A DNA stretch of 52,850 bases from a virus, in IMG/VR virus record IMGVR_UViG_3300048930_000349, positions 1-52,850 of that record. One strand, given 5' to 3'. This document shows, in pieces, positions 2,160-52,494 of the stretch; the stretch's first letter is position 1, and each line of letters begins with the position of its first letter. The position numbers were made by a program, and so were the translations under genes. Under the pieces are notes generated by a model. The model saw only the letters and a list, made by a program, of their open reading frames with translations. It did not search any database and was not told the origin of the DNA.

Positions 2160-2161
2160 GG

Positions 2162-2710
2162 TCACTCTCCCATTGCATAGTCATAGGACCGGCTCGCGCG
2201 CTTGCGCTTGCCATAGTCGGAATAGATGGTTCCGGCGGTCCCGAGGAGGCCGGTTCCTGCATTGATGAAGCCTGCCGTTTTGGCCTGCTTGCCTTCGGCC
2301 TTGGTGATGGCGGCGCTGGTGTAGAGGTCATTGCGCGCCACGGACCCGCTGTAGAGATCGGTCAGGGCGTTGTACTCGCCGCGCTGCTCGATGCCGGTCA
2401 TGATGTCGGTGACGGTATCGCCGGTGCCTCCGCCCGAGGCCGCCGCCACCGCCTGGGTGCGCCCGAGAGCGAGCTGCTTCTGCCGCCTGGTCTCCATGGC
2501 GCGGCGCTGGGCGATGGCATATTCCTGGTCGCCCTTCTCCTTCATCGCCTTGGATTGGGCCTTGGCGGAGGCTTCGGCCTGCATTCCGCTATAGACCGAG
2601 CCACCCGCTCCAAGGAGAGATCCGCCTACTGTGAGAGCCGTTCCGATGGCGCCAGCGTTGGCGCTCAGAAACCCGCCAACCGCGCCGAGTGCTGCCATTA
2701 CGGGAGCCAT
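2162..2710 (-). CDS. Internal virion protein (T7 gp14-like position)
   Basis: A 182-residue protein with a glycine/alanine-rich N-terminus that could insert in a membrane (about residues 3-40: runs of GAVGGF, GAIGTALTVGGSLLGAGG), followed by a charged helical stretch rich in Gln, Lys and Arg and a C-terminal Gly/Thr-rich segment. Podovirus genomes carry such a small core protein after tail tubular protein B, where it is ejected with DNA. The ATG at 2710 has AAAGGG six bases upstream; a second ATG at 2698 overlaps the preceding stop as TAATG and is the alternative start. A longer upstream open frame is just read-through of the neighbour. Family assignment rests on composition and position. Confidence 0.75.
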   Translation of the reverse strand: MAPVMAALGAVGGFLSANAGAIGTALTVGGSLLGAGGSVYSGMQAEASAKAQSKAMKEKGDQEYAIAQRRAMETRRQKQLALGRTQAVAAASGGGTGDTVTDIMTGIEQRGEYNALTDLYSGSVARNDLYTSAAITKAEGKQAKTAGFINAGTGLLGTAGTIYSDYGKRKRASRSYDYAMGE

Positions 2711-3066
2711 TTGAAAACCCTTTCGCCGTTGATCTTCTCGCCTGTCGGCTTGAACCCGAGACGCAACAACCACCGCTCCGCCGTGGGCTCGGTCTTGGCC
2801 TCTATGGCATAAAGTTCCCCGAGCTGCGAGACACCCGCCGCCACCATCTGCTTGGCCAGCCGGTGCATGAGGAGCGGGAAGCGGCGCAACTCCTCGGCCA
2901 TGTCGAGGTTGAGGAAGGGGCGGTTGCCCTGGCCGATGACGATCGAGGCGGCGCCGATCTCGCGGCCGTCCAACTCCGCCACCAAGCCGAAAAACCTGGG
3001 CACGATGTAGCGCGAGTGCTTCACCATGTCCCGCGCCCGCATTTCCCGAACCCTAAGCGCGCTCAT
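2698..3066 (-). CDS. GNAT-like acetyltransferase fold protein
   Basis: This 122-residue protein ends in a pattern typical of GNAT acetyltransferases: a beta strand (ELYAIEA) followed by a helix (AERWLLRLGF) where acetyl-CoA-binding enzymes have A..LY.K.GF. Related GNAT-like proteins sit between tail tubular protein B and internal virion proteins in many podoviruses, at the position of T7 gp13. It overlaps the end of tail tubular protein B by 14 bases and its stop overlaps the next start. I see no substrate clue. It may act on a virion or host protein, or may have only a structural role. Confidence 0.72.
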   Translation of the reverse strand: MSALRVREMRARDMVKHSRYIVPRFFGLVAELDGREIGAASIVIGQGNRPFLNLDMAEELRRFPLLMHRLAKQMVAAGVSQLGELYAIEAKTEPTAERWLLRLGFKPTGEKINGERVFKWLP

Positions 3067-5758: not shown

Positions 5759-6393
5759 TAGGCGTACCTGTGTCCGCCGGAGGATCCGCGGTAGCCGCTG
5801 AACCGGGCCTTGTTCCATCGCCCGTCCGGCGGCCGCCTGGTCGGCTCGCGCATGGCCTCGAAGGTCAGGGCTTCCTTGAGCGCGTTGTCCGCGTCAGCCT
5901 TGAGGTTGCCCTTGGCATTGTCCGAGGCGCCGGTGATCTTGGGCGCGATCGAGTGCGCCAGGCGCCAGGAGAAGGCCTCGATGAAGCGGGCCGTCCACCG
6001 CGTCATGTCCATGCCATAGCCGGTGTCGGAGTTGGAGACGTAGCGCACATAGATCGGGGTCACGTCCGCGATGAAGGTGTTGCCCTCCTCAAGCCACTCC
6101 TCGAGTGGCGGGTCAAGGCGCTCGGAGCCCGAGACCAGATAGGTGCGAACCCAATCCTCGGGCTTGTTGAACACCCTATTGGCGCCGAATGCGGTGGCCG
6201 TGTCGGGGTCATAGTCGATCTTCACCGTCCGCATGGCGAATTTCCAGAACCCCGCCTCGAGCATCCAGCGGAGATCCTGGTCATAGTGGGTGTCGAGCAC
6301 ATAGCGCGCCTCGCGGGCTTCATCCACGGCGGCGAGTTGGCTCTCCTTGATATGGGAGAGGGCCAGGTTGTAGATCTCGAGCTGGGTGGTCAC
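5758..6393 (-). CDS. Tail tubular protein A (T7 gp11-like)
   Basis: A 211-residue protein beginning MTTQLEIYNLALSHI, followed by a helix containing RYVLDTHYDQDLRWMLEAG. This N-terminal signature (LEIYN.AL......A..LD..YD......L..G.W.FA) is characteristic of the podovirus gatekeeper that joins portal to nozzle. Length matches the usual 190-220 residues. It lies directly before tail tubular protein B, with a 3-base overlap. It is an essential virion component in related phages. Confidence 0.93.
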   Translation of the reverse strand: MTTQLEIYNLALSHIKESQLAAVDEAREARYVLDTHYDQDLRWMLEAGFWKFAMRTVKIDYDPDTATAFGANRVFNKPEDWVRTYLVSGSERLDPPLEEWLEEGNTFIADVTPIYVRYVSNSDTGYGMDMTRWTARFIEAFSWRLAHSIAPKITGASDNAKGNLKADADNALKEALTFEAMREPTRRPPDGRWNKARFSGYRGSSGGHRYA

Positions 6394-9891: not shown

Positions 9892-10171
9892 CTTGTTTCT
9901 CCTGTCGTGGGGGCAATGGACGGTCGATGGCGTTCAATATCCGGGCGCCCACGAATCGCTTGCCCTCCGCGAAATCGCTGGCTCGGGCGCCGTCCGGGCC
10001 CGGCCGGAAACTCATGTCATAGACGCATGAGAACTTGGTGAGGATGGTGATCAGGGCGATCCGCTGCTGGGGCGCGGAGGCCGTGCCGGTGGAAAGCGCC
10101 TTGATGGCGAGGATCTCGGCCTCGCCCAGCTCGGGCGCTTCCCAGGGATTGACCGGCGGCTTGAACTTCAC
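9797..10171 (-). CDS. Bbp19-like phage protein
   Basis: A 124-residue protein whose central part (residues about 40-80: ILTKFSCVYDMSFRPGPDGAR then DFAEGKRFVGARIL) fits the Bbp19-like family of small phage proteins found between portal and scaffold genes, named after Bordetella phage BPP-1. The C-terminal third is basic and proline-rich and overlaps the scaffold start region in another frame. It overlaps the portal stop by 4 bases, indicating coupling. Function is unknown; it is probably a virion or assembly factor. Confidence 0.78.
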   Translation of the reverse strand: MKFKPPVNPWEAPELGEAEILAIKALSTGTASAPQQRIALITILTKFSCVYDMSFRPGPDGARASDFAEGKRFVGARILNAIDRPLPPRQEKQDERTGPETARPDRRNPKPPARRGKPARPAAE

Positions 10172-11799
10172 GCGGCCACCGGCTGGGGCATCTTGCCCGC
10201 CATCTCAGCCATGGCGCCCATCTCGCCCATGGCCTGACCGGCGATCTGCGACTCCTCCTCGAGCTGCTGGTCCTCGGCCGCCTGGTCGGGATCCTTGAGC
10301 CAGTTCGGCGGGGCCACGCCCGCGATGGCATCGCGGAAAGCCTGGGTTTCGTCAAAGTGCTCGGTCACGCCCGGTTTGAGGAGCTGCTTGGCCTGGCTCA
10401 CGATGCCCATGCTGGTGTTGAAGGCGAAAGCCTTGCTCTGGCGCTGGGCGTCCTGGAGCGGGTTGTCGAAGGTGTATTCCACATCGCGGCCACGCAACTC
10501 CTGGGGCATCTCATCGAGCGGGCCCCAGAGCTTCATGCGGATGGCCATCTCGACGGCAATGTCCAGGATCGAGGCGTTGCGCTCGCTCTCGGCCGGAGCA
10601 ATCACCGGCTGGGCCACGCGGAGGAATTCCTCATGGCGCCGTTGCACCTCCTCCGCCGTCATCTGCGGGTTGTTCTGGGGGAGGAACAGCTTGGAGAGAT
10701 AGAACGCATCCTTGAGGTTGCCGGTGATGCCCTGGCGCAAGGCCTCCCCGAATTCCGGGGTCGCACCCAGCTCGAGGGCGCGGATCGCCTCGCCGGTGCG
10801 CTCGTCATAGCGCTGGTCCACCCAGGTCACCATGCCGGAGCGGATGTCCACGCCCGAGAGGATGGCCTCGGATTGTGCCACCAGCGGCGGCTCGACGGCC
10901 TTCTCGCCTGCCTCGATGATGCTCCAGGTCATGGTCTGCAGTGTGCGGCCGTCCGGCAGCGCGATGATGGTGCAGGGTGACAGGGCATAGGGCGAGGAGT
11001 CGATTCGGAACCAGCGCGACACTGAATAGTTGAACACATATTCCGGCTTTGCCGAGATCTCCCATTGCATGTCCGGCATGAGATAGCAGGAATACCAGCC
11101 TGCATCGGTCTTCTTGTCCGGGGCATATTCCATCGACGGCACCAAGACATGGTAAATTTCAACCATGTCGTTGGGGGTCTTGGCCAGCTTCTCCTTGACC
11201 TTCGGCGGGATGCTCCAGTTCTTGGAACGCTCCTGGGAACACAGGTTGCGCACCGACACCTTGATCTTGCGATAGAAGGTGTCCACTTCGCCGTCATAGT
11301 TCTCGCGCCACGCGCAATCGCGGAGATGCCAGGTGCGGAAGCGCAGGCCCATGCCATCGCTCCGCCCCTCGACCGAGGTCACGGCATTGCCGAAGGTCAC
11401 CCAATCATGGTCCCCGGCGCGCACCGCGTTCGAGAAATTCGAGCGCCGGTCCTTGAGGAGCTGCATGGTCATCTCGGAGCGGGTCTCGAGGTATTGCTGG
11501 ACCGAGAGCACCTTGCGCAGGCGCGGATCCTGGGCGACGATCTTGAACCAGTCCCGCCCCCAGGGCCTCAATGCCGCGTCGATGTAGTTGCCGAAATCCC
11601 GGCGGAACAGGCTTGGCTCGGAGGCGTAGAGCCGCGAGGCGAAGTCCTCGCCCAGGCTATGCTCAATCGTGAAATCCGCGCGCTCGGGATAGAAGTGCTC
11701 GCTGATGTCCTGAAAGAAGCTCATCAGGGAGTCGCGCTTGGTGAAGGCATCGAGAACCTGTTGGCAGACGAGCTGTCCGTGCGCGCCGAGTACCGGCAT
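10168..11799 (-). CDS. Portal, head-to-tail connecting protein
   Basis: A 543-residue protein of the podovirus head-to-tail connector family (twelve subunits form the DNA channel at one capsid vertex). Visible features are the N-terminal helix with FFQDISEHFYPERADF, an SLFRRDFGNYIDAALRPWGRDWF segment, and a long helical C-terminal region with Met- and Gln-rich tail. Length fits the usual 520-560. It lies directly after the terminase, as is standard. The ATG at 11799 is preceded by AGGAGGCCCCC. Confidence 0.93.
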   Translation of the reverse strand: MPVLGAHGQLVCQQVLDAFTKRDSLMSFFQDISEHFYPERADFTIEHSLGEDFASRLYASEPSLFRRDFGNYIDAALRPWGRDWFKIVAQDPRLRKVLSVQQYLETRSEMTMQLLKDRRSNFSNAVRAGDHDWVTFGNAVTSVEGRSDGMGLRFRTWHLRDCAWRENYDGEVDTFYRKIKVSVRNLCSQERSKNWSIPPKVKEKLAKTPNDMVEIYHVLVPSMEYAPDKKTDAGWYSCYLMPDMQWEISAKPEYVFNYSVSRWFRIDSSPYALSPCTIIALPDGRTLQTMTWSIIEAGEKAVEPPLVAQSEAILSGVDIRSGMVTWVDQRYDERTGEAIRALELGATPEFGEALRQGITGNLKDAFYLSKLFLPQNNPQMTAEEVQRRHEEFLRVAQPVIAPAESERNASILDIAVEMAIRMKLWGPLDEMPQELRGRDVEYTFDNPLQDAQRQSKAFAFNTSMGIVSQAKQLLKPGVTEHFDETQAFRDAIAGVAPPNWLKDPDQAAEDQQLEEESQIAGQAMGEMGAMAEMAGKMPQPVAA

Positions 11800-39205: not shown

Positions 39206-42200
39206 CTACTCCATCCCGATGAGCAGATCCGAGAAATCGGCCTCCTGCCCGTCCTCCAATACCCTATTTTTCACCTCGGGCCAAACCTCTCGCACGCTCT
39301 GGTCATCGTTGACCTTGCGCTTGCTGTAGCGCGCGAGCAATTCCTCGCCCAATTCGGGTGCCAGGGTTGTGATGTCCTGGATGAGGCTCTCGGTTTCCAT
39401 GTACTCTTTCCCGGCCCAGCCGGGGATGCCGGTGGTGATCAGGGCGTTGCGCGCCTCCACCATCGCCAAGCGCGCGAGAAGCTCCTGGGCGCCGTGGCGC
39501 TGGTCCGGCGTGAGGGTGATGAGTTCTGGCTCCTCCTCATCGCTCTCGATCATCTTCACCCGGTTTCCGGCGATCTCCTTGCGCAAGGCAGAGATGGCGG
39601 CCACAGCATCCTTGGCCCGGCGCATCGGGTGCAGCCGTTCCACCTTGGCCTCGAAATGCGTGGTGAGCTTGGCATAGGCCTTGAGGTTCTCGTCCCGGCC
39701 GTCGAGGAAGGCATCGGCCGCCGTGGCCCCTTGCGACTCGAATATCTCCTTGTAGGTGTTGGCGCCCTGGGCCAGCGGCCCGGATGACTCCGACATCTGG
39801 GCCCAGAATTCCCGGCTCGAGGTCGCCCCGGAGGTCACTTGCTTGAGGAAGCGGCGGGAGATCGCCCCGCTCATGGTCTCGAGCACCGGGCGCTCTTGGG
39901 CGGTGTCGCGGGAAATGTCGGTGATGATCTTGCCCCAGGACGCGCCGAAGCCCTGGATGGCGTGATCAATCATCGCCGGGCTCATGCCGGTCACATAGCC
40001 CATGCCCTTGGCAATTTCCGAGGTCTGGGCGGTGTACTGCCGCCACGGCTCGAAGCCTGCAATATCCCGGCCCACGATCGGGCGGCCGAAGGAGTCAACA
40101 TTGTGGGCGAGTTGGTAACCGACATTGAAGATCGGCACCTCCATCGGAGGTGCGGTCACCTCGAACAGGCCGGACCAGAACGACTCCATCGCCACCGGGT
40201 TGCGCTTGTAAACCGCCTCGAAACCGCGCTCGAACAGGTTAGAGATGAACCCCAGCTCGAAGGGCTTGGGAATGGCGATCCAGTCGCCCGGCCCGCGCTT
40301 CACCATCCAATGGGTGGCGCGGAGATATTCCGAGATCTCCTCATGTTCCGGGTCATCGCGGTAGAGATAGGACAGGCCGAGGCCGAAGACGCCGATCGCC
40401 GCCACCTTGGCCCAGGCCTTGGCCGCCTTGCCGAGGTTGGCCTTGTCCCGGGCCGAGAGCGGCCGCCCTGCCCGGTGGTTGATGTAGGGGGTGATGGCCT
40501 TGCGGATGGCGCCCTCGCCAGTGAGCACGCGCACCGTCTTGTCGAGGCCCTGGAGCGAGGCGTTGAGGAAGGTCACCAGGCGCCGCGCCGCGTGCGTCCT
40601 CGAGCCATGGCGGCCAAAGTCGATATAGTCCCGGGACTGGAAAGCCGCCTCCACCGCGGCCTCGTAATCGTTCAGCCCCTCGCGCTTGGCGCGGTCGAAG
40701 GCCGAGCGGAAGATCCCCAGCCTTGTGCCGGTCTCGGTCAGCTCGGTGAATTCCGCAAAGCCGCGGATCGAGGCGAAGCGCTTGATGGCATAGCCCTTCT
40801 TCTGGAGGGCGCCGAGATCGCGCTTGGCCCGGCCGCGATCGAGGGCCGCGACATTGGCGCCGCCCATGATGCCGCCGAAGGAGTTGTAGATCTGGGTGAT
40901 CTCGCGCTGGGTGATTTCGTCGTAGAGGCCGCGGGCGCCTGTCACGAAAGGGATGAAGGTCTCGCCCGAGAGAACCCAGGCGGACATTTGGTCACGGACA
41001 TAGTTGGCCAAGACGAAAGGCGGCGCGGTGGTGATCGAGTAGCGCAGCGCTGTCGTGGGAAGCGCTAGGGTGGCGGTGAACAGATCCCGCGACTCCTTGT
41101 TCATGCCGGTCATGGCGTCGTAGAGATCCTTACCGAATTCGCCATCCGCCAGGCGCAGCGCGTGCTTCTTGCCATCGCGCCAGGAGTAGATGATCGGCTC
41201 ACCCTTTTCGTTGATCTCGCCCGCCCGGAACACCGTGGCATTGGCGCCCTCGCCCATCATGTCATCGACCAGGGTGGTGAGCGCGTCGATGTCACCGGGG
41301 TTGAGACCGGCCTCCTTGCCTGCCGTGCGCAGCACCTCGTTCACATCCACCGATGTGCCCTTGAGTTGGGTGGACGGAATGCGCTCCAGGATGGCGCCGC
41401 CGCCCGGGCCCGCCTGGCGCGCCAGATCCTCGAGCGCCTTGAAGACATCGTTGCGGCGCATCAGGGCGTTGAAGTGATAGGCGTCCGCCATCATGGACTC
41501 GATCGGGTTGATGATCGAGCGCTTGGACCCCTTGAAGGCCTTGATGATCGAGTTGCGCAGCACGCGGTTCGGCTCGGCGCCCGCCTCCCGGTCGAGGTCG
41601 GTGAGGTCGCGCATGAAGGGCACATAGTCCTTGCGCTGGATCAGCTCCTCGTAGAGTTCCTGGGTGATGAAGCCTGCCTCGTATTTCTTCTTGAGGAGGT
41701 TCTTCTGCCAGCCATAGACCATTTCGGCGGCCTGGATGAAATTCGGGTTTGCCGCCTCGAGTTCGGCAATCGTCACCTCATAGTCGCCGCGGGTGAACTT
41801 GCCCGGCGGGTTGGGAATCTCGCCCGCCAGAAAGCGGTCATACTCGAGCACCGCCCGCCGAGAGATGAGATAGGAAGCGAAGTCCGCGACCAGCGCGTCA
41901 TCCCAGCCGGTCCACTTGTCGCCCCAGGCCACCGCCAGGCCATCCGCCAGGGCCGGGCCCTCGGGGCGCACGCCGCGATAGGGCACGACACCGTGCATGA
42001 GATCCATGTGCCCGGCGGAATAGCTGTCCTGCAGCAGCCGCGCCAGGCGGTAGGGATCCTGGGCGGAGGTGATGTCGAGCGCCTTGCCGGTGCGCTTCTC
42101 GTAGACCTTGAGCAGCTCGTCCACCGCCCGGTTGATCGGGTTGAGCTTGTCCAGGAAGGTGGTGTAGGCGGTCGAGGCGTAGTTGCCGATGGTGGCCCGG

Positions 42201-43030
42201 ATGCCATTCTTCTCGGCCTCCTTGATCACCTCGGTCACGGCATTGCCGCGGCGGGTCGAGACCACATCCCCGGCCACCGCGGCGCGCGAGGGGGCGGTGA
42301 CATGGGCGAGATAGGCCGCCTGGATGCCCTGGATCTGGCGGAGCTGGTCCGGCGCCCGGGTGCGCAGCATGTCCTCAAAGGCCTGGGTGAAGGCCGGAGC
42401 CTGGGCGCGGGCATAGTTCGGGGTGGTGACGTAGTAGCGGAACCACTCGGCAAAGCCCTCGGAAAGCTCCTGGCGCGGATCCGCCCCGGCATAGGCGAGG
42501 GGTTTCAACTCCGCCTCGTTGGCCAGCTTGATGGTGTTCAGCGTCCGGCCCCATTCGGTCTCGAGCGAGTGCGCGGTCTCATGAGTCTGGGTCTCGAAGT
42601 CCGACACCTCGCGGAGGCGGATGACGCCCTGGCCGCGGTCGTATTGGCCTGCCACCTTGCCGCCGCCTGCCGGGGCGCGCTGTAGCCTTCCCTGCCGGAC
42701 GGGGGCGCCGGTCAAGGCCTGGAGATCGGCCGCGATGTCCTCGAGGCGCGGCGCTTCCACTGGCCGGGCCGCCTGGCCCTGGGTGACGGTGCCGCCCTGG
42801 GGGCGGTTGACCGGCATAGCGCCTTGCTGTTGCGGGCGGCGGGCGAAGGCCACGCCCTGGCTGGAGACCGGGAAGCCCTTGGCCTGGATTTGCCCGCGCA
42901 AGCCTTCCAGCTCGGCCGTCAGCTCATCGGCATAGGACTGGATCGCGGTGGCGTCGGACCCGCGCTCCCGGATTTCTGCGATGTCATCGGGAAGGACGCG
43001 GATCGAGGCAAGGCATTTGTTCAGGCTCAT
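39206..43030 (-). CDS. Giant virion polyvalent protein with HExxH motif (LPD38-like)
   Basis: A 1274-residue protein. Residues 150-154 are HETAH, with Glu191 and Glu195 in SEGFAEWF 37 residues later, the arrangement of gluzincin-type zinc metalloproteases. The C-terminal third (NHRAGRPLSARDKANLGKAA, then RDDPEHEEISEYLRATHWMV and DWIAIPKPFELGFISNLFE) resembles the large polyvalent domain (LPD38) of phage ejected proteins. The middle has long helices. Ejected polyvalent proteins enter the host with DNA. The protease motif could act on host proteins. Active-site identity inferred by motif. Confidence 0.82.
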   Translation of the reverse strand: MSLNKCLASIRVLPDDIAEIRERGSDATAIQSYADELTAELEGLRGQIQAKGFPVSSQGVAFARRPQQQGAMPVNRPQGGTVTQGQAARPVEAPRLEDIAADLQALTGAPVRQGRLQRAPAGGGKVAGQYDRGQGVIRLREVSDFETQTHETAHSLETEWGRTLNTIKLANEAELKPLAYAGADPRQELSEGFAEWFRYYVTTPNYARAQAPAFTQAFEDMLRTRAPDQLRQIQGIQAAYLAHVTAPSRAAVAGDVVSTRRGNAVTEVIKEAEKNGIRATIGNYASTAYTTFLDKLNPINRAVDELLKVYEKRTGKALDITSAQDPYRLARLLQDSYSAGHMDLMHGVVPYRGVRPEGPALADGLAVAWGDKWTGWDDALVADFASYLISRRAVLEYDRFLAGEIPNPPGKFTRGDYEVTIAELEAANPNFIQAAEMVYGWQKNLLKKKYEAGFITQELYEELIQRKDYVPFMRDLTDLDREAGAEPNRVLRNSIIKAFKGSKRSIINPIESMMADAYHFNALMRRNDVFKALEDLARQAGPGGGAILERIPSTQLKGTSVDVNEVLRTAGKEAGLNPGDIDALTTLVDDMMGEGANATVFRAGEINEKGEPIIYSWRDGKKHALRLADGEFGKDLYDAMTGMNKESRDLFTATLALPTTALRYSITTAPPFVLANYVRDQMSAWVLSGETFIPFVTGARGLYDEITQREITQIYNSFGGIMGGANVAALDRGRAKRDLGALQKKGYAIKRFASIRGFAEFTELTETGTRLGIFRSAFDRAKREGLNDYEAAVEAAFQSRDYIDFGRHGSRTHAARRLVTFLNASLQGLDKTVRVLTGEGAIRKAITPYINHRAGRPLSARDKANLGKAAKAWAKVAAIGVFGLGLSYLYRDDPEHEEISEYLRATHWMVKRGPGDWIAIPKPFELGFISNLFERGFEAVYKRNPVAMESFWSGLFEVTAPPMEVPIFNVGYQLAHNVDSFGRPIVGRDIAGFEPWRQYTAQTSEIAKGMGYVTGMSPAMIDHAIQGFGASWGKIITDISRDTAQERPVLETMSGAISRRFLKQVTSGATSSREFWAQMSESSGPLAQGANTYKEIFESQGATAADAFLDGRDENLKAYAKLTTHFEAKVERLHPMRRAKDAVAAISALRKEIAGNRVKMIESDEEEPELITLTPDQRHGAQELLARLAMVEARNALITTGIPGWAGKEYMETESLIQDITTLAPELGEELLARYSKRKVNDDQSVREVWPEVKNRVLEDGQEADFSDLLIGME

Positions 43031-45057
43031 CCCTCATCCTCCAGGTAAAATCCGACGATGGCCATCACCAGATCATCGTCGTTCTTGCGTAGCATTATAG
43101 GCGGTTCGATGAGTTTCGCGGGCTTCTTTTTCTTCCGCCGCCCCATGAAGGGGCCTTCCGGCTCAAGGGGGGTGGCGACCACCACAATCAAGGTGGCATC
43201 CGTGCCGGTGAAGCTGTAACTCCCGGCCTCCGCGACCAGCGTCAGGGCCGAGAGCTTCTGCAGCGTGGCGTCTTCGCCGGTGAACAGATAGGCCCCGGCG
43301 TCGGCGGATATCTCGACACCGCGCTCCAGGCTGGCATCGGTCCCGTTGATGGCGTAAGCGCCGCCATCGGCGGCCATCTCGCGGCCAAGCTCGAGGAAGG
43401 CATCAACGCCCGAGACGGTGAAAGACCCCGGCTCTGCGAGAACCTCGCGCGCCAGTTCCAGCCCGGCATCGGTGCCGGTGAACAGGAACGCCCCGGAATC
43501 CGCCCCAATGACCTTATCGGCACCGGACTTGATAAGAGTGGCATCGGTGCCTGTGAATGCGTAGGTTCCGCCGTCTGCGGCTAGTTCGCGGCCATACTCA
43601 AGCGATGCGTCGAAGCCGGTGAAGGCATAAGACCCGGCATCCGCTGCAATCTCGCGCCCGTATTCGAGACTGGCATCCACGCCAGTGAAGACATATGAGC
43701 CCGCGCCCGCAAGGACTTCTCTGCCATATTCAAGGCTGGCATCCTGGCCGTTGAAAGTGAACGCCCCGGCCTCGGCAATGACCTTCCGGCCATATTCGAG
43801 AGATGCGTCTGTTCCGGTGAACGTGTAGGTTCCGGCCCCTGCCAGAACTTCACGCCCCAGTTCGAGGTTGGCGTCCGTCCCTGTGAACAGGAACGATCCC
43901 GCCCCTGCCGTGACCTCACGGCCAAACTCAAGATTGGCGTCCGTGCCGGTGAAGGCGTAGGAGCCAGCCCCGGCGAGAACCTCACGGCCATACTCTAGAG
44001 AAGCGTCCTGTCCTGTGTAGGCATAGGAGCCTGCGTCTGCTGCGACTTCCCGGCCATACTCAAGGTTAGCAGCGGTCCCTGTGAAGGTGAACGCGCCCGG
44101 ATCGGCTGCAATCGACCTGTTGACAAGGGCGGAAGCAGCGCCAGCGAGGGGCAATCCCGCGACCGGACCCAAGCCCGAGTCGAAGATGCCGACAACAGGA
44201 ACAACTGCCGCCGCCTTTTCCAGCGTGGCGGCGGTGCCGGTGAAGGCAAAGGAACCAGCCTCGGCTACTACCTCACGGTTAAACTCTAGATTTGCATCGG
44301 TGCCGGTGACGGTAAAACTGCCCGGATCGGCAACCACCGTGCGGAGCGGTTCTTCCTTGAACGCTGCCGCAACGACGACATGCCTTGCCGATGTGGAGGC
44401 GGTGACGGTGAGGTTGCCGGTTGCGCCTGCCGTGGCCCTGAGAGCATCACCGATGGCCAGCGAGGCGTCCGCGCCCGTCGTGGTGCCGCTGTCGCAGCGT
44501 TCCTGCCACGTGCCTTCGGCGGGGTTGCCTGTTTGGTTTGAGTTGGTGCCGCTGGCCGTGGTCGGGTCCGTTGCGGCGTCAAAATTGGTAACAGTGCTGT
44601 TGCGTGCGCCGCAGAAGCCGAACACCACAAGGTCGCGGGCGTTGGCCGTGGTAAGTCCGGTGACACTGACCGCCGTTGCCGCCGTCGCCAGCGTGGTCGA
44701 GGTCGAGGTTACAAGAACGTCAGATGAACGGTTATTGCCGCGATAGGCGACGATACGCCCAAGGGCCACATTGCCAGCGGTGCGCGTGAATGTCAGTCCC
44801 GGAGCAGACGAGCCCCGGATGCAGTAGAACATATGGCCCGAGCCGATAGAGCCCGTGCCGTTTGCTGTGGTATTGCCAGTGTTCTGGCTGGTGATGCTAA
44901 CCCACGGCGAACCGGGGGAAGAAAATGCAGCGTTTGAGCGGTAGGAGATGACACAGACGAGCAGATCGCCCTGCTGGACGCCCGAAGGCTCCGTGAGCGT
45001 GAGGTTGCCGCTGGCGGCAGTCGCTACCGATGAGACGCCAACGTAACTCCAAGCCAC
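43027..45057 (-). CDS. Tail-fibre-like protein with 16 tandem repeats
   Basis: A 676-residue protein. Residues 1-240 form a beta-sandwich-like domain (YVGVSSVATAASGNLTLTEP, GRIVAYRGNNRSS, RDLVVFGFCG) related to the Tat-tagged protein at 35367. Residues 241-630 are a tandem array of about 16 units of 22 residues, core AGSYAFTGTDANLEFGRE. A basic RRKKKKPAK segment and a short acidic tail end it. Such repeats form extended beta structures. The stop overlaps the polyvalent gene by 4 bases. A receptor-binding or stalk role is likely. Confidence 0.72.
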   Translation of the reverse strand: MAWSYVGVSSVATAASGNLTLTEPSGVQQGDLLVCVISYRSNAAFSSPGSPWVSITSQNTGNTTANGTGSIGSGHMFYCIRGSSAPGLTFTRTAGNVALGRIVAYRGNNRSSDVLVTSTSTTLATAATAVSVTGLTTANARDLVVFGFCGARNSTVTNFDAATDPTTASGTNSNQTGNPAEGTWQERCDSGTTTGADASLAIGDALRATAGATGNLTVTASTSARHVVVAAAFKEEPLRTVVADPGSFTVTGTDANLEFNREVVAEAGSFAFTGTAATLEKAAAVVPVVGIFDSGLGPVAGLPLAGAASALVNRSIAADPGAFTFTGTAANLEYGREVAADAGSYAYTGQDASLEYGREVLAGAGSYAFTGTDANLEFGREVTAGAGSFLFTGTDANLELGREVLAGAGTYTFTGTDASLEYGRKVIAEAGAFTFNGQDASLEYGREVLAGAGSYVFTGVDASLEYGREIAADAGSYAFTGFDASLEYGRELAADGGTYAFTGTDATLIKSGADKVIGADSGAFLFTGTDAGLELAREVLAEPGSFTVSGVDAFLELGREMAADGGAYAINGTDASLERGVEISADAGAYLFTGEDATLQKLSALTLVAEAGSYSFTGTDATLIVVVATPLEPEGPFMGRRKKKKPAKLIEPPIMLRKNDDDLVMAIVGFYLEDEG
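43181..44337. repeat. Tandem array of about 16 x 66-bp units
   Basis: Sixteen units encode the 22-residue repeat of the fibre-like protein. Most copies are 66 bp; units 2-3 are separated by about 30 residues of non-repeat sequence and units 11-12 and 15-16 have small insertions. Copies are diverged at the DNA level but still close enough to permit slippage or recombination between them. Confidence 0.8.
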
Positions 45058-45068
45058 GGGCTAACCTC

Positions 45069-45545
45069 CTATCGCTTGGACGCCGCGATGAAGAACTGAT
45101 CCACCTGCGTTTGCGTGAAATTCTGAGCCGTCACGAATGCCTGAAACTCCTGATCAGTCATGCGGATGATGTCGGTGAACTGGAAATATTCCTGCACACC
45201 CTCGCTGGCCGTCGAGAGCCAGTTGAGGAACTGCGTCTTGCGGTTCCGCGCCCTGACTTCGCGGCGGAACTGGAGCGACGTGATGCGCGGCGGGGCGATG
45301 GCTACAGCCAGCGTCCATTGCTTGCGCCATGCGCCGTCCGAGAACATTGGCAGCGCCTCGACTACCCGCTCAAACTCTCCCGGTGTCGGCTGTTCCGTGT
45401 CGAGGACAGGATAGACACCAAATTCAGCCAGCAGTTCATCGGACACTTCGCGCGGGAAGGACGTGTTTGGGTTATCGGCCTTCAGCTTGGCGAGGCTGTA
45501 GGGGTATTCAACGATGGTCTGACCGGAGGCTTTTACGTAAGACAT
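45069..45545 (-). CDS. Tail fibre assembly-like protein
   Basis: A 158-residue protein: MSYVKASGQTIVEYPYSLAK, with DNPNTSFPREVSDELLAEFG and a C-terminal helix EFQAFVTAQNFTQTQVDQFF. The N-terminal pattern (YPYSL..L..DNP..SFP) is shared by small proteins encoded with phage fibres, some of which help fibre trimerisation. It lies directly before the repeat protein. Function inferred. Confidence 0.66.
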   Translation of the reverse strand: MSYVKASGQTIVEYPYSLAKLKADNPNTSFPREVSDELLAEFGVYPVLDTEQPTPGEFERVVEALPMFSDGAWRKQWTLAVAIAPPRITSLQFRREVRARNRKTQFLNWLSTASEGVQEYFQFTDIIRMTDQEFQAFVTAQNFTQTQVDQFFIAASKR

Positions 45546-45556
45546 TCTGCGCTCCG

Positions 45557-45937
45557 TTACTTGATTTCAAAGAGGTAGGTGCCGCTGGTAATGCCGATGG
45601 TCACAGTTCTATCCAGCGTCGTGTAGCCAGCAATATCGGTGTTATAAACCCATGAGCCCGAACCGCCACGATTGACGCCATCAATGTAAACATTCAGGCT
45701 ACTGACAAGAGACAAGCAGTCGCCAATAAACCAAACTGCAAGATCCGTTCCCGTCCATGATGCGCTGGCCATCGTGAAGCTCGGAACTGGTTCCGCATCT
45801 ATGCTTCCTATGCTGACGCCCTGACCCGCAGGTGTGTCGTACCCGTACAATATGCCGCTGAAGTCCCCAACGGTCAGATTGCACGAATATCCACCCGAGA
45901 CGGCGGGCGCATTCATCAGTTTTTGCCAGATCAGCAT
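45557..45937 (-). CDS. Hypothetical fibre-region protein
   Basis: A 126-residue beta-rich protein (YSCNLTVGDFSGILYGYDTP, TDLAVWFIGDCLSLVSSLNV, TLDRTVTIGITSGTYLFEIK) with two cysteines. Composition suggests an antiparallel beta domain. It overlaps the upstream fibre gene by 1 base. No family recognised. Confidence 0.58.
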   Translation of the reverse strand: MLIWQKLMNAPAVSGGYSCNLTVGDFSGILYGYDTPAGQGVSIGSIDAEPVPSFTMASASWTGTDLAVWFIGDCLSLVSSLNVYIDGVNRGGSGSWVYNTDIAGYTTLDRTVTIGITSGTYLFEIK

Positions 45938-46752
45938 CAGGCAACGTCCCCGATGTGCTTGCCATAGATCGCGTCAGCGTCTCGCCACAGCGCCACCACA
46001 GTCCAGCCGGTGGTCGCCAGCGTCGGCGGCGAGCCGCCCACCCACGTCACGCCCAGCGTTGACCAGGTGATCGAGTAGGCTGAGCCGTCGTTGATCTTGA
46101 GCAAGAGCCCCTTGCCCGCTGTCCAACCGCCCGGTGCCGCCGCAGGCGTACGGTTCGCCCCAAGCGTGATTTTCTGCAAGCTGCCGTTCGACGGGTCGAT
46201 CACGAAGGCCGCGCCGTCCGTGATGGTGAACTCCTCCTCGTCAAGCGCACCGTCGAGGATCAGGTCGGTTATCGTCTTGCCCGAGAGCGTCTGCGTGCGC
46301 GAGAGCGTGACAACCTCAACGCCCTCAATCGTCATCACGCCAGCGGCAGAGCGTGCGAGGGTCGTGTCTGTGGCGTGCCCAAGTTCAATTGTTGAGAATT
46401 GCTGTGCCGCCGTCCACGACTGAACCCGGTCGAGAAGACCAACATCGGCCATCGAAATGGTCAAGAACACTTCAGCGGTTCCAGACAGGTTGATCTTGGA
46501 CGTTCCCGCCGTGCCGCCGATCTTGGACGCAATCACCGTGTCACGGCTCATCGTCGTGCCGGAAGTCGTGTAGGTCCCGGTGCCGATCTCGAAGTCGTTT
46601 CCGTCCGTGATGACATACGTCACCGTGTTCGTGTTGGCCACGCCAGCCTCGGCAAACGTCAGATAACCAGCCTTTGCCGTCCCGAGCGTAATTGTGCCGG
46701 TTCCGGTCGTGGCCGTGGTCATCCAGGCGCGGTTTGCATAGGCTTTGGCCAT
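45937..46752 (-). CDS. Tail fibre protein
   Basis: A 271-residue protein. N-terminal part (MAKAYANRAWMTTATTGTGT, then GYLTFAEAGVANTNTVTYVI) resembles phage fibre tail-attachment domains with TGTG repeats, followed by DRVQSWTAAQQFSTIELGHA and a C-terminal beta domain with SAYSITWSTLGVTWVGGSPP. Both features are common in fibre and tail proteins of short-tailed phages of Alphaproteobacteria. Function as receptor-binding or adaptor is inferred. Confidence 0.68.
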   Translation of the reverse strand: MAKAYANRAWMTTATTGTGTITLGTAKAGYLTFAEAGVANTNTVTYVITDGNDFEIGTGTYTTSGTTMSRDTVIASKIGGTAGTSKINLSGTAEVFLTISMADVGLLDRVQSWTAAQQFSTIELGHATDTTLARSAAGVMTIEGVEVVTLSRTQTLSGKTITDLILDGALDEEEFTITDGAAFVIDPSNGSLQKITLGANRTPAAAPGGWTAGKGLLLKINDGSAYSITWSTLGVTWVGGSPPTLATTGWTVVALWRDADAIYGKHIGDVA

Positions 46753-47121
46753 CTATCGGACTTCCCAAAATGGACGGGGATGCGTGATCTCGCCCGTCAC
46801 AGGGTTCTTTGACCCGCCAACGCAAAACGATACATGGCAGCGCCCGCAGGAGCAGTGCAGCTTGTACACGTCAGGAATGCCCTTGGCCTGTTCGCTGGCC
46901 TTGGAATACCACGCCTCTATTTCGATGTTCGCCACCTGATGGCAGCACTCGTTCGGGGCGTTGTTGACCACCTTGTCGTGGAACCGCTGAACGGTCGGAC
47001 ACAGCCTCAACGCCCGCTCCAGCGGAATGCGGGGGCAGGCGAGGATGTGTTCGCAGTCCAGGGGTTGCCACGCCAGCGTGCGCGGCTGGTTGCCCCATTC
47101 GATGGCGTCAGTGTACATCAT
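46753..47121 (-). CDS. Cys-rich hypothetical fibre-region protein
   Basis: A 122-residue protein with several cysteines: LACPRIPLERALRLCPTV, NECCHQ, LHCSCGRCHVSFCVGG. The last cluster looks like a compact zinc site. It lies in the fibre block between the fibre at 45937 and a structural protein at 47118. No family recognised. Confidence 0.58.
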   Translation of the reverse strand: MMYTDAIEWGNQPRTLAWQPLDCEHILACPRIPLERALRLCPTVQRFHDKVVNNAPNECCHQVANIEIEAWYSKASEQAKGIPDVYKLHCSCGRCHVSFCVGGSKNPVTGEITHPRPFWEVR

Positions 47122-47534
47122 GCAAAGGTCGCGAGGCTCGCGCCAAAGTCAACGGTAAACGTCTCGCCGTTGCCCACGGTGAACGATGAACCATAGTCGT
47201 AGGAGTTCATCAAGATGTCAGTGGTGGCCGTATCGTCATGGATGGACACATAGCGAGCGGAACCCCAGTCGCCAGCGGTCGCGGTCCAAACCACGTCAAC
47301 GGCCGTCATGGTGACAGTGCCGCCCGCGCGGGTGCCATCGTTCTGGATGTCCTCGCCCCCCGCCGTGTAGCCGGTGCCGGTGACCTGGGTGAGGTCGGCC
47401 AGCTCGTCATCCGTGGCCACAACGGGGGCATCCGAGTGGATGACGGCCCGGAACGTGTCGGTGGTGCCGAACACATCCACCTCCTCATTCACCAGGGCTT
47501 CGATGAAATGCTCGTACTTAACAAAGGTTGCCAT
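47118..47534 (-). CDS. Structural fibre-region protein
   Basis: A 138-residue beta-rich protein (VKYEHFIEALVNEEVDVFGT, DTFRAVIHSDAPVVATDDEL, GYTAGGEDIQNDGTRAGGTV, WGSARYVSIHDDTATTDILM). The pattern T.D.....V.....P...D.....V.E...GNGY..GG is shared with phage tail or fibre-associated proteins. Overlaps the Cys-rich gene by 4 bases. A virion role is likely. Confidence 0.66.
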   Translation of the reverse strand: MATFVKYEHFIEALVNEEVDVFGTTDTFRAVIHSDAPVVATDDELADLTQVTGTGYTAGGEDIQNDGTRAGGTVTMTAVDVVWTATAGDWGSARYVSIHDDTATTDILMNSYDYGSSFTVGNGETFTVDFGASLATFA

Positions 47535-47582
47535 CGTCGTGGGCTCCCGCTCAGGTTGGGGTTACAGGGTGAATGCTTAACA

Positions 47583-47984
47583 TCATTTAACGCTCGCATA
47601 AATGGTGGACCCGACCAGCGGCCGGGCCACGATGCGCTCGATGTCGCCCGCCGCATTGCGGACCACATCGAACTGGTAAGGCTGCTTCGGCTGGGGCGGA
47701 GCGGGAAGCGGCTGAGCTTTGGCCGCTTGCTCCACCTTCGCGGCCAGGCTGTCAAGGCGCGCGAGGATCTCGAGGGTCTTGGGATCCGGCTCCTCGGGGC
47801 CCTCATCGGCGGCCTCGTTTGCGATGATCTCGCGCACCAACGTCTCGATCTGGGCCAGGCGCTTGATGACGATCGGGTCGGTGAGCACTCGCTCCACGGT
47901 GCGGGGGACAATCTTCTCCACCACCCGCTCGATGACTTTCGGCTGGGGCAACTCATTGGTGAGGTATTCACGCTTAACCCGCAT
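47583..47984 (-). CDS. Hypothetical helical protein
   Basis: A 133-residue protein with a VIERVVEKIVPRTVERVLTD and IKRLAQIETLVREIIANEAA helix pair, a Pro/Asp-rich linker, then LEILARLDSLAAKVEQAAKA and a C-terminal QFDVVRNAAGDIERIVARPL strand pair. It overlaps the end of the giant gene by 11 bases. The layout suggests a trimeric coiled coil with a small beta end, possibly a tail component. Confidence 0.6.
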   Translation of the reverse strand: MRVKREYLTNELPQPKVIERVVEKIVPRTVERVLTDPIVIKRLAQIETLVREIIANEAADEGPEEPDPKTLEILARLDSLAAKVEQAAKAQPLPAPPQPKQPYQFDVVRNAAGDIERIVARPLVGSTIYASVK

Positions 47985-50900
47985 TGATACACTCCAGGAG
48001 TTGCCGCAATGACTGGATCCGCGTTAGCATGAAATCGACTGCATCTCCAGCGTTCACCGGGATGGCCTTGCCGGTCTCGTCCACCGCCATGACCGTGGCA
48101 TCCCGCCAGGGGCCGGGTTGCATCAGGGGATCGGAAGCCGTACCCTGTGACAACGTGCCATCTTGAGCCGCGGCCTGGTCTGCACCAGGTCTGTTATTAA
48201 AGGAGGGATCCGTGAAATTCGTAGATTGGGAGAGCCGCCCGGCGCTTTGGTCGGTGGGCAAGGCCTGGGCCATATTGGCGCCGGGAGAAGACTGGACCCC
48301 CGTTGACTCCATCGAGGTCGGGGAGTCGGGGAAAGTCCTGCCCAGCGCGGAGTCGCTGGCGGAGACCTTCTCGAGCACCTTCGGCGCGCTGCCGCCATTC
48401 CCCAGCACCACGGCGGACCAGGACGGCGGGAGCGAGTCCACGATCGGCGCGTAAAGGTCGATCATCGCCTGCTCGAGTTGGGCCCGCTCCGGGCCTTCCG
48501 GCATGGAGCGCGAGGCCGTGTAAAGCTCGGTGCCGCCGCCCTTCATCTTGGCATAGGCAAGCTGCGGCTCCCACACCTGAACCTCGCCGATCGTCCCGTC
48601 ATAGAAGCGCACCGCCACCTTGCGGTCGAAATAGCCGTGCGGGGTGACGATCCAGCCCTCATCAAGGACATCGAAGAATTCCGCCAAGCGTTGCACCAAG
48701 GCATCGGCCTGTTGCGGGGTCTGCACCTCGAAGCCGGAGCGCACCAGGTCACCGAGCTGCTTGGTCGAGCGGTAGCCCTTGCGGCCAATCTTCTCCTCGG
48801 TGGTGGCGCGCTTCTTGATGCCGGGGTTCTTGAAGGTGATGCCCAGATCCTGGGCGATCTCCTGACCGGCGGCGACCAGCTCGTCCTGGCGGCGCTGCAG
48901 GATGCCGCCCTCATAAAGCTCGTCGAGGCTGCGTTCGGGCTGGCTGTCCATGAACGCTTTGCCGATCTCCTTGGCCGTGGCCGGAGGATGATTCGGCGCC
49001 GAGAACGCAAAACCCTGCTGGTCGGCGTCATCGCTGAACAGGCCGAGGTCCATGGCCTTCTGGGGGCGCTTCGGGCGGAGCGGGGCGGCGGCGCGCATTT
49101 CCGCCAAGCGCTTGTCGCCTATGCGCTCGGCGCCGGGGATGACGGCCTGGGGTTTGTTGTCGGCGCCGGTTTCAAACAGCCCCGGTCCGGCCTGGACGGG
49201 GCGGCGGGAGAAGGCGATGTTGGGCTGGCCTTGGAGGGCCTCGTCAATCGCCTCACCGATCGCCTGGGCCGAGAGAAGGTCACCGGCCTCATCGAAGGAT
49301 CCGCGGCTCTGCGGATATATGCGGGAGAGTGCCTCCTTGGCCTTCTCGAGCGGCACCTCGGTGATCAATTCCTCGGTGAAATTTGCATCCTCCCCGAAGG
49401 AGTAGGCAATCCGCGCCTTGCCATCCGGCCAGGGCGTGAGATCCACGCCGATCTCGGATGATGTCGCTTGCCCCCCCACCTTGTTGGAGCGCTCATATTT
49501 TCCGGCCTTCTGGGGCGGCGCGGTGATCTTGTACACCGCGATTGAGTTGCCCGATCCGCCTGCAAAAGCCGGGCTATCGAAATCGTCCAGTTGCCCGGCA
49601 TGGCGAGCCACGCCCCCGAGGTTTCCGGCATTCTTGCCGCGCACCGAACGCGAGCCCTGGCGCTGGATCCGCGCCACATAATAGGTGCCGGACACATCGT
49701 CATTGACGCGGAACGCCGGAGCGCCAGGCTCTAGTCTTGCGGCAATGCCCGTTTCACTCTCGCGTCCAGCCGCGCCAGGGATACCCCCGTCCGCACCAGT
49801 TGCCGGACCCGATCGGCGGAGCTGGTCGAGAAAATCTCGGACAACGACCTGTCGGGAACCGCCGTCTTTAAGTCGCTTTGCGGCGGCGGCGAGGGCGTCG
49901 GCAACGGGGCCTTTGCGCCGCGCTTGGGCTTGGAGGGTTGCGAGGATTTCGGCATCTTGGGTGGCCCTTTTTGCATTGGTCTGGGTGGCGAGCTTGTTGC
50001 CTGCTCCGGTGAGGCGGGCCTCCTCGCGCACCAGGGTGGCGAAGGCGGCGCGGTCCTTGCGGATGGCGGTGGCGGCGGCGCTCAAGACCTGGGCGCGCTC
50101 CTTGAAAAGGATCTGCGTCACCTCGGCCGAGCCGAACATATCCTCCATGGTGGACTGCACGGCCGGGGCCTCGAGGGCATCCCGGATCATGCTCTCCGCC
50201 TCAATCGCATTGTCCGGCTGCTCTTTGGCGAGGAGCCCGAGCAGCTCGGCATGGGTCTTCGGATCCGGCGCCAGGCGGCCCACCTGGGCGGCATAGCCTG
50301 CCGGAACTTTCTTGTTGATAACCATCCCGAAGGCGTCATCCGAGAGGCTGGCGAGCCCCTGGGCATCGCGCACCAGGGCGGAAGTCGGAGGGAGATCGAC
50401 CCCCATGTCCGGCCGCGAGCGCAGGATTTTGGCGGCGTCGATCGCGTTGCCGGTGCCCTCTGCGATGTTCTTGGCGGCGGCGATCGCCCGGGCGTCCTCG
50501 GCCGTCACGCCGTCCGCTTCCCGGAGGACCACGGCGCGGATCTTCGGATCCTGGCCTTCCTTCTCGAGGCGCGAGGCGAGGCCATGGCGCTGGTGGCCAT
50601 CGGCAATGAAGAAGTTGCCCTCGAGATCCTCCCACACCAGGGTCACGCCGGACTTGATCGGGTCCCATGTCTTCACGCCCTTGAGGCGATCGGTGACTCC
50701 GGCCTCGTCGCCGCCGTCCTTGAACTGGAAGCGCTTGGCGTCAACCTTGAGATCGGAGGGGCTGAACTGGCGCTCGGTGCGGTCGATCGGCAGGGGCGCG
50801 GGCGGGGCCTGGCGCGGTGCCGGGGTGGTGACTTCAAACATAGATTCGCGAGCGGGGTTGGCCTCGAAGCCCGGGCCCTGGAGCATGGTGGGGGTCTCGA

Positions 50901-52494
50901 GCTGCACCTTGCCATCGGGGAGCACCACGGCGCGGCGGCCGTCATCCCTGCCCCTGTCCCACACCTGGTTCCCGTCCGCGTTGACGCCGATCTGCTTGGC
51001 ATCCGGGCCCAGGGGTTTTGGGGGGGCAAGTTCAGCGGCAGGCGTTGCCTCGGTGACCAGCTCGGCGGTGGGCGGCGCATCGGGGGCGGTGCCGCCGGTG
51101 AGGTCGGCCCATTCCTGGTCAACCTCGGCGGCGCGCTGGCTGGCGATCGCCTCCTTGACGCCGCGGCCATCGTCGCCGCTGATGCCAGGGCGGAATTCAC
51201 CGGAGGAGAACAGGCCGCCGGGATTGAGAATCCCCAAGTGCTTGGTGGGGTCCGCGTCGATCGCCTGGATCTCGGGGCTGTCGGCGCCGAAGGTCTTGAT
51301 TGCCTTCTCGAGGGCGTCGGCATGGCGCTCGCCGGTGAAAATCTTGCCGCCTGCCATGAGGGCCGGGGTCTTCTCGCCGCGATACTTGGCCGGGTCTACC
51401 GAGAGATCCGCGGCCTCCTGCTGCACGATGAAATCACCGATCGGGTTGCCGGGGAGATCGAGAGGAACATCCTCATTGGTCAGCCCGCCCGGGGTCTCGG
51501 GCTCGGCCTGGGGAATATCCCCCGCGCGCCCGGCGTTGAGGTAGTCATCGAGTTGCGCCGCCTGCTCGGGGGTGAGATTGCGCGTGCCCACCACCTCGCC
51601 AAAGAGATCCTCCTGGGCCTGGGCGAGATCCTGGGCGCTGTACTCCGCTTGCAGCTCTGCCGCGGTGGGGGGCGCCATGGTCTGGGGCGGCGGGGTTTCA
51701 GCTTGCGGCTGGCGCGGGGCCATCGGGCCGGGGGCGGGAGGAGCGGACGCGGCGCGGGCGGCTTCCCGAGTGTAGAAGTCGGCGGCGGCGCGGCCGTCGA
51801 GGTAACCGAAGGGGATGCCAAAGGCACCACCGGCCAAGGCATCGACACCGAGCGAGAGCCAGTCCACCTCATCGCGCATATCGGCGCCGAATTCCTCCGC
51901 CTGGACGGCGCCGTTCAGCGCCACGTTCATGGCGGCATTGGAGACGCCGTGATCGAGGAGCCGTGAGAGCATCGGATAGGCCATGCGCCAGCCGGTCGTG
52001 CCGATCTTGACCACCGGCCCGACGAGGGAGAGAGGATCCGTCACGGCACCGGCAACAGCACCACCCACCGCGGCGGCATAGTCGCCAGCCGTTTCGGCGG
52101 GTTTCATGCCCTCGAATTGCGCTTGGCGCTCGCGGCGCATGTCGCGGAGGAAATCCGCTGTCTGCTTCCCGGCCTCAGGGCCGACACCGACACCACCGAC
52201 ATAGCCCATGTCGGCGTCCTGGATCTCGCCCAGGTCATTGAGGCCCGGCGTGCCGTATTGCTGGGCGTTGCGGAAATGCTGGACGAACCGCTCTTTCCAA
52301 TCGACATCGGCGGGAGCGGATCGCTCCGCGAAATCCGTATCGGCGCGGAAGGCCTCATAGGGATTCTGGTCCGGCTTCACCTGGAGGCCCATGTCCGGCT
52401 TGTAAGGCACCGGCTCGCGCGCCGTGATGGCGCGGGTCTGGGCCTCGCCTTCAGGGCTCCAGCTATCAGTCGGTGTGCCGGGCATCGTGACCAT
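47974..52494 (-). CDS. Giant polyvalent virion protein with ParB-like and RelA/SpoT-like domains
   Basis: A 1506-residue protein. The N-terminal 250 residues are helical with an Ala/Gly-rich membrane-interacting stretch (AAVGGAVAGAVTDPLSLVGP). A ParB-like domain is around 590-710, with ADGHQRHGL (631-639). A C-terminal segment about 1225-1330 resembles RelA/SpoT synthetases: basic KKRATTEEKIGRKGYRS, Asp1249 in LGDLVRSGFEV, GYFDRKVAVRF, and Glu1304 in GEVQVWEPQLAYAK, then KGGGTELY. The gene lies with the lysozyme-domain virion protein and the second polyvalent giant, so the product probably enters the host with DNA. Domain matches are by pattern. Confidence 0.8.
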   Translation of the reverse strand: MVTMPGTPTDSWSPEGEAQTRAITAREPVPYKPDMGLQVKPDQNPYEAFRADTDFAERSAPADVDWKERFVQHFRNAQQYGTPGLNDLGEIQDADMGYVGGVGVGPEAGKQTADFLRDMRRERQAQFEGMKPAETAGDYAAAVGGAVAGAVTDPLSLVGPVVKIGTTGWRMAYPMLSRLLDHGVSNAAMNVALNGAVQAEEFGADMRDEVDWLSLGVDALAGGAFGIPFGYLDGRAAADFYTREAARAASAPPAPGPMAPRQPQAETPPPQTMAPPTAAELQAEYSAQDLAQAQEDLFGEVVGTRNLTPEQAAQLDDYLNAGRAGDIPQAEPETPGGLTNEDVPLDLPGNPIGDFIVQQEAADLSVDPAKYRGEKTPALMAGGKIFTGERHADALEKAIKTFGADSPEIQAIDADPTKHLGILNPGGLFSSGEFRPGISGDDGRGVKEAIASQRAAEVDQEWADLTGGTAPDAPPTAELVTEATPAAELAPPKPLGPDAKQIGVNADGNQVWDRGRDDGRRAVVLPDGKVQLETPTMLQGPGFEANPARESMFEVTTPAPRQAPPAPLPIDRTERQFSPSDLKVDAKRFQFKDGGDEAGVTDRLKGVKTWDPIKSGVTLVWEDLEGNFFIADGHQRHGLASRLEKEGQDPKIRAVVLREADGVTAEDARAIAAAKNIAEGTGNAIDAAKILRSRPDMGVDLPPTSALVRDAQGLASLSDDAFGMVINKKVPAGYAAQVGRLAPDPKTHAELLGLLAKEQPDNAIEAESMIRDALEAPAVQSTMEDMFGSAEVTQILFKERAQVLSAAATAIRKDRAAFATLVREEARLTGAGNKLATQTNAKRATQDAEILATLQAQARRKGPVADALAAAAKRLKDGGSRQVVVRDFLDQLRRSGPATGADGGIPGAAGRESETGIAARLEPGAPAFRVNDDVSGTYYVARIQRQGSRSVRGKNAGNLGGVARHAGQLDDFDSPAFAGGSGNSIAVYKITAPPQKAGKYERSNKVGGQATSSEIGVDLTPWPDGKARIAYSFGEDANFTEELITEVPLEKAKEALSRIYPQSRGSFDEAGDLLSAQAIGEAIDEALQGQPNIAFSRRPVQAGPGLFETGADNKPQAVIPGAERIGDKRLAEMRAAAPLRPKRPQKAMDLGLFSDDADQQGFAFSAPNHPPATAKEIGKAFMDSQPERSLDELYEGGILQRRQDELVAAGQEIAQDLGITFKNPGIKKRATTEEKIGRKGYRSTKQLGDLVRSGFEVQTPQQADALVQRLAEFFDVLDEGWIVTPHGYFDRKVAVRFYDGTIGEVQVWEPQLAYAKMKGGGTELYTASRSMPEGPERAQLEQAMIDLYAPIVDSLPPSWSAVVLGNGGSAPKVLEKVSASDSALGRTFPDSPTSMESTGVQSSPGANMAQALPTDQSAGRLSQSTNFTDPSFNNRPGADQAAAQDGTLSQGTASDPLMQPGPWRDATVMAVDETGKAIPVNAGDAVDFMLTRIQSLRQLLECINAG

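Follow-up and report, generated by a model that had tools for sequence, protein, structure and literature searches.

The locus and its carrier protein

The window analyzed here is the whole 52,850-nucleotide virus record IMGVR_UViG_3300048930_000349. An identical 127-nt repeat occupies its two ends (1-127 and 52724-52850) and one open reading frame (ORF) spans the contig ends, so the contig probably represents a whole genome; an integrase was looked for in the window and not found. The features that bear on the analysis are as follows.

3..2165, continuing at 52498-52848, minus strand: lysozyme/endolysin-domain protein, directly upstream of the polyvalent gene across the contig ends (phrog_3572/phrog_7)
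3056..5818, minus strand: podovirus-type tail protein (phrog_376, E=5.8e-147)
10171..11799, minus strand: head-tail adaptor, portal type (phrog_332, E=3e-66)
39206..43030, minus strand: 1274-aa protein with LPD38, C-terminal half of the giant protein (PF18857, E=1.8e-29)
43027..47984, minus strand: genes between the two halves, encoding small, tail-like and repeat proteins (ORF list)
47974..52494, minus strand: 1506-aa polyvalent protein, N-terminal half of the split giant protein (ORF; homology to the L001 and L106 proteins)
48427..48945, minus strand: predicted RSH (RelA/SpoT-type) synthetase domain, residues 1184-1356 (profile, AlphaFold2, Foldseek)
49003..49317, minus strand: middle block, residues 1060-1164, edge of the cargo slot (shared with L001 and L106)
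50092..50769, minus strand: DdrB-like ParB region, residues 576-801 (phrog_10691, E=1.4e-65 over 582-895)

The 1506-aa protein is homologous to a 3293-aa protein of the relative L001 (across the N-terminal, ParB and middle blocks) and to a 1448-aa protein of the relative L106. The scaffold is one 3293-aa protein in L001 and is divided into an N-terminal and an LPD38 half, with other genes between, in both the window and L106; in L106 the halves lie about 2.7 kb apart; the 1274-aa protein is 77% identical to residues 2076-3292 of L001. We rejected an assembly error as the origin of the split because L106 has the same one. The middle block is 47.6% identical to L001 residues 1686-1779 and 71% identical to L106 over 1091-1159. 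The wider middle region (49003-49705, residues ~930-1164) belongs to no family, shares its stretch 1091-1159 with L106, and yielded no further relatives in the relative search.

The lysozyme-domain gene lies directly upstream of the polyvalent gene, and genes for the tail, head-tail adaptor, major head protein and terminase lie further upstream. With ParB and RSH regions sharing an ORF, LPD38 encoded by its partner and virion genes around them, the locus has the composition of a polyvalent protein, and regions of the same type in L049 and L064 match PF18763 (ddrB-ParB). From this gene context the 1506-aa product is probably a virion protein. Two further ORFs can be noted: the 676-aa protein at 43027-45057 contains in its translation many near-identical repeats of ~18 residues (xAxAGSYxFTGTDAxLEYGREV), and in a 756-aa ORF at 23020-25290 the first part matches DNA methyltransferase families, while HNH endonuclease families match close to the end.

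An RSH synthetase domain beyond the reach of family libraries

The first-pass annotation proposed a RelA/SpoT-synthetase-like domain in the 1506-aa protein. The family libraries are blank over this region, so that call came from motif reading alone: Pfam, NCBIfam and PHROGs returned nothing useful for the RSH domain by itself, the full protein matched zero Pfam families at E<=10 (MuF included), and phmmer of the domain against the PDB gave a chance hit only. A sequence profile, the predicted fold and residue conservation now bear the proposal out. Profile A2, built from 8 phage relatives with the window left out, scored the window domain at 59.9 bits, and at 66 bits in a dedicated control in which other parts of the 1506-aa protein reached at most 5.5 bits. 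A chance motif match was ruled out by 500 shuffles in the same control, the best of which scored 3.0 bits. Profile A2 also matches E. coli RelA (34.5 bits) and SpoT (26.1 bits), and the best sequence-profile match is Tas1 (E=8e-25 with profile A1, 3e-13 with A4). An hhalign comparison of a 30-sequence alignment with E. coli RelA/SpoT gave 87% (4e-6); the same comparison of a 7-sequence alignment with the two E. coli sequences gave 0.3%, which is not significant.

A search with Pfam RelA_SpoT had been among the suggested checks; PF04607 matches neither the window nor any of 7 members of the window clade. It does match 6 of the 9 sequences in the wider set A1 (best E=3.5e-8). The miss reflects the reach of one model, which does not define the RSH superfamily, and fold and profile assign the domain to it.

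The AlphaFold2 model of residues 1165-1366, computed from 30 sequences, has a pLDDT of 95.4 and a pTM of 0.89. When it was compared with the PDB using Foldseek, all 50 matches listed were RSH enzymes, beginning with Tas1 (PDB ID: 6ox6, E=1.8e-6) and the exported alarmone synthetase SaEAS (PDB ID: 8vx3), followed by Rel, RelP, SAS1/2, SpoT and CapRel; the TM-scores between Tas1 and the model are moderate (0.63/0.65). Among viral models, polyvalent phage proteins came out on top, one of them named RelA/SpoT. The predicted fold is that of the SYNTH nucleotidyltransferases of the RSH superfamily, and the unrelated fold that the first-pass annotation had named as grounds for abandoning its proposal did not appear. 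By the agreement of profile and predicted fold, residues ~1184-1356 of the 1506-aa ORF are an RSH synthetase domain.

Active-site residues

Conservation was counted over 99 sequences, window included, and the predicted catalytic positions are these.

48583..48585, minus strand: Glu1304 of ExQ, predicted catalytic Glu (E in 99/99 and in E. coli RelA and SpoT)
48631..48633, minus strand: Tyr1288 of GYFDRK, predicted acceptor-base stacking residue (Y in 98/99 and in RelA and SpoT)
48748..48750, minus strand: Asp1249, predicted Mg2+ ligand (D in 99/99 and in E. coli RelA and SpoT)
48790..48816, minus strand: K1227-x3-T1231-x3-K1235, predicted ATP donor phosphate-binding residues (conservation and FaRel2 spacing)

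The motifs quoted in the first-pass annotation are present as given: EEKIGRKGYRS at 1233-1243, LGDLVRSGFEV at 1247-1257 (with Asp1249), GYFDRKVAVRF at 1287-1297 and GEVQVWEPQLAYAK at 1303-1316 (with Glu1304). Loss of the two acidic residues among homologues would have counted against the domain; instead both are invariant in the 99 sequences and align with their counterparts in RelA and SpoT. The conservation of G, Y, D1290 and E is partly circular because these residues were in the retrieval patterns, whereas Asp1249 was in no pattern; Glu1304 is nevertheless kept in all 43 relatives retrieved by GYFDRK alone, a pattern without the Glu. Gln1306 is found in 97 of 99 sequences and Arg1252 in all 99. 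Two details of the annotation needed revision. Its RSH motif, given as 'D..G.R', is correctly D-x-x-A-x-R, and the window has D-x-x-R; its 'basic entry segment' does exist as a sequence, but phosphate binding is better placed at K1227, T1231 and K1235. In FaRel2, K66, S70 and K74 hold the ATP phosphates (PMC11782079), and the spacing of the three window residues is the same; Lys1227 occurs in 99/99 sequences, Lys1235 in 97/99, and position 1231 is mostly T, S or R.

On the donor side, the position three residues after the Asp is Arg (R1252), which is the Tas1/Apk state, and Ala in RelA and SpoT; of the Tas1/Apk syn2 motif R-x-T, the Arg is present (99/99) and Gly1254 stands where the Thr is expected. 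Acceptor motifs have been described as SxH in GTP-using RSH enzymes and GxN in Apk enzymes (PMC12226406). The window has D1290-R-K where Tas1/Apk syn3 has GxN, and we rejected a full assignment to the Apk/Tas1 family because GxN is missing. The His of GH-x-LY is Thr1322 in the window (His in 71 and Thr in 15 of the 99 sequences). With this DRK motif and Thr1322, the acceptor is not readable from sequence. The catalytic residues of the RSH domain are intact, and a catalytically competent enzyme is predicted.

Relatives, clade and exchange of cargo

Relatives were retrieved only through degenerate DNA patterns of GYxD...E[IV]Q in IMG/VR and of GYFDRK, so retrieval is biased; most relative records are fragments, and the E-values of local searches refer to small sets. 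The first pattern search, based on the window domain, found no relatives, and tblastn of the window domain against phages and plasmids gave nothing even at E<=1. Against 50,697 phage records, tblastn with three clade members gave no match and with a fourth gave one distant match, to Bordetella phage PHB04. The clade alignment found matches in 120 virus contigs, of which 80 were kept, and in 11 genome contigs, where two of the matches are weak; the genome-contig matches came with alignment A4, a query with a single relative having been unsuccessful. Named genomes among the matches are mostly Rhizobiales and Rhodobacterales. In the tree, 87 rows including the window form one clade (100/98) with the GYFDRK motif, and L073/L106 is sister to the window (100/99). 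No description of this GYFDRK clade, which numbers at least 87 members in the set examined, appears in the databases and literature searched.

The ParB regions of the window and L001 are 93.9% identical, and in the slot of the window's RSH domain L001 has a Zeta_toxin-type kinase (PF06414, E 3.7e-14, residues 1872-2025), which sits between its middle block and its LPD38 half; L001 also carries an ART domain. On the same scaffold L106 has ART, GNAT and RSH domains. A different effector in the same slot beside a near-identical ParB points to swappable effector cargo. ParB and RSH share an ORF in 57 of 101 relatives, and in the Salipiger prophage L101 a transglycosylase of the tail-injection type, ParB and RSH are combined in one 1272-aa ORF with a tail protein nearby. 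In two relatives, a single giant polyvalent protein contains both an RSH synthetase and an HD_4 domain: L092 (a 4466-aa frame; residues ~1598-1808 and ~3680-3835, HD_4 E 2.4e-18) and L093 (residues ~1060-1269 and ~3177-3311, HD_4 E 4.9e-18). From its sequence, this HD_4 domain appears to be alarmone-hydrolase-like; no HD_4 hydrolase was found in the window.

Comparison with known systems

Work published in 2012 and 2017 described RelA/SpoT domains in polyvalent and MuF proteins (PMC3482391, PMC5512222), and the idea of an injected RSH domain in a phage polyvalent protein is already in Iyer et al. 2017 (PMC5512222). The polyvalent proteins in that work have the same combination of RSH, DdrB-ParB and other conflict domains and were predicted to be injected; their lineages are phages of spirochaetes and epsilonproteobacteria and MuF fusions. 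The clade of the window is distinct: its phages are short-tailed, its genome hits are mainly alphaproteobacterial, and in L101 it includes the fusion to an ejection-type transglycosylase. What is new here is a clade missed by Pfam, its short-tailed phages and alphaproteobacterial genome relatives, the Tas1-like donor residues and the unusual acceptor motif.

Among characterized enzymes, the T6SS effector Tas1/Apk1 (6ox6) shares with the window the Arg at Asp+3 and the conserved Asp, Glu and Tyr, but identity is ~20%, the acceptor motif is GxN rather than DRK, and delivery is by T6SS rather than by a phage protein, as predicted for the window. The Apk2 MuF toxins of temperate phages, members of which have been assayed, likewise place an RSH-type pyrophosphokinase domain in a phage structural protein; they differ in their MuF scaffold and in the adjacent immunity genes iapK and aph1, the window having neither HD_4 nor MuF (PMC12226406). 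The second-best fold match, SaEAS (8vx3), is likewise an RSH enzyme delivered outside the cell that makes it; it depends on bacterial secretion, and DdrB-ParB polyvalent phage proteins are not among the export domains named in the passages considered (PMC12691689). In Bordetella phage PHB04 (MF663786), a protein of the 494-aa type has an RSH domain scoring 111 bits with profile A3 and adjoins the portal gene. The order there (L185, 5077-7342) of portal, RSH protein, 69-aa ORF and alarmone hydrolase resembles that of Apk2, IapK and Aph1, an arrangement the window lacks.

Proposed role and alternatives

We consider it reasonably probable that the domain is a catalytically competent RSH pyrophosphokinase carried as ejected effector cargo, with an adenine nucleotide as its most likely acceptor. 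The polyvalent protein of this short-tailed phage would be packaged in the virion and leave it with the DNA at ejection. In the cytoplasm of the host it would bind ATP through K1227/T1231/K1235 and R1252 and hold Mg2+ with Asp1249; Glu1304 would promote pyrophosphate transfer from ATP to a purine acceptor, at its 3'-OH, with Tyr1288 stacking against the acceptor; both this transfer and the roles given to single residues are our inference. With an adenine acceptor, which is a guess based on the likeness to Tas1, the product would be (p)ppApp and ATP would be drained, as in Tas1 and Apk2, so that host metabolism and purine synthesis might be slowed at entry and takeover favoured. Packaging and ejection are proposed by analogy with phage P1, which processes its DdrB and builds it into the head (PMC5512222), and with the podovirus JC1, in whose virions a DarB-like giant protein was detected by mass spectrometry (PMC9144972). 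The suggestion in the first-pass annotation that such an enzyme is injected, though still an inference, is strengthened by the ParB region in the same protein, the ejection genes upstream and the L101 fusion. The phage probably introduces an enzyme that alters host metabolism into the bacterium along with its DNA. Several observations weigh against this reading: DRK is neither SxH nor GxN, the GH-x-LY His is Thr1322, and phage growth itself would suffer from a strong toxin, with no HD_4 domain found in the window.

The same ejected enzyme could instead use GTP or GDP, making (p)ppGpp and triggering or mimicking the stringent response. The fold family includes Rel, RelP and SAS1, and L092 and L093 have their alarmone-hydrolase-like HD_4 domain in the same giant protein; however, the window has DRK instead of SxH and Arg instead of Ala at Asp+3, and it is Tas1, a (p)ppApp enzyme, that leads both the sequence and the fold comparison; this makes GTP/GDP an unlikely acceptor. 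Slightly less likely still, in our view, is a tRNA pyrophosphokinase of the toxSAS type, which would arrest host translation at entry by blocking the 3'-CCA end. Foldseek does list CapRel, DRK is unlike the motifs of nucleotide-using enzymes and the basic motif could bind RNA, yet CapRel ranks 22nd, a long way after Tas1 and SaEAS, and the donor-site Arg pattern resembles that of Tas1 and not that of FaRel2, whose R64 and R95 correspond to G1225 and G1254 in the window.

A domain that has lost its activity and survives as an RSH relic with a structural or binding function would suit the Thr in GHxLY and the unusual acceptor motif, but it is improbable given that the Asp, Glu, Gln, Gly-Tyr pair and both Lys are near invariant in 99 divergent sequences, including the 43 not selected for the Glu, and that Thr1322 recurs in 14 other members. 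We regard as equally improbable a protein that is expressed late and retained where it is made, for instance to counter competing phages, without ejection. Conflict-type domains do also serve competition between elements (PMC5512222); against this, the gene adjoins tail and lysozyme-domain genes, in L101 the RSH domain is fused to an ejection-type transglycosylase, and other giant polyvalent proteins are present in virions (PMC9144972).

If the ejected-pyrophosphokinase reading is true, an alarmone-type enzyme would be delivered with the genome before any phage gene expression, which bears on phage control of host metabolism in the first minutes. With 7 tested members missed by Pfam RelA_SpoT and one distant tblastn match among 50,697 records, automatic annotation appears to miss a common effector. 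We suggest more tentatively, as a possibility that on balance we doubt, that the GYFDRK clade forms a class of its own among RSH pyrophosphokinases, distinguished by its acceptor specificity and widely ejected by short-tailed phages to set host nucleotide signalling at entry. Where synthetase and alarmone-hydrolase domains occur in the same giant protein, as in some relatives, the phage could increase the signal as well as clear it.
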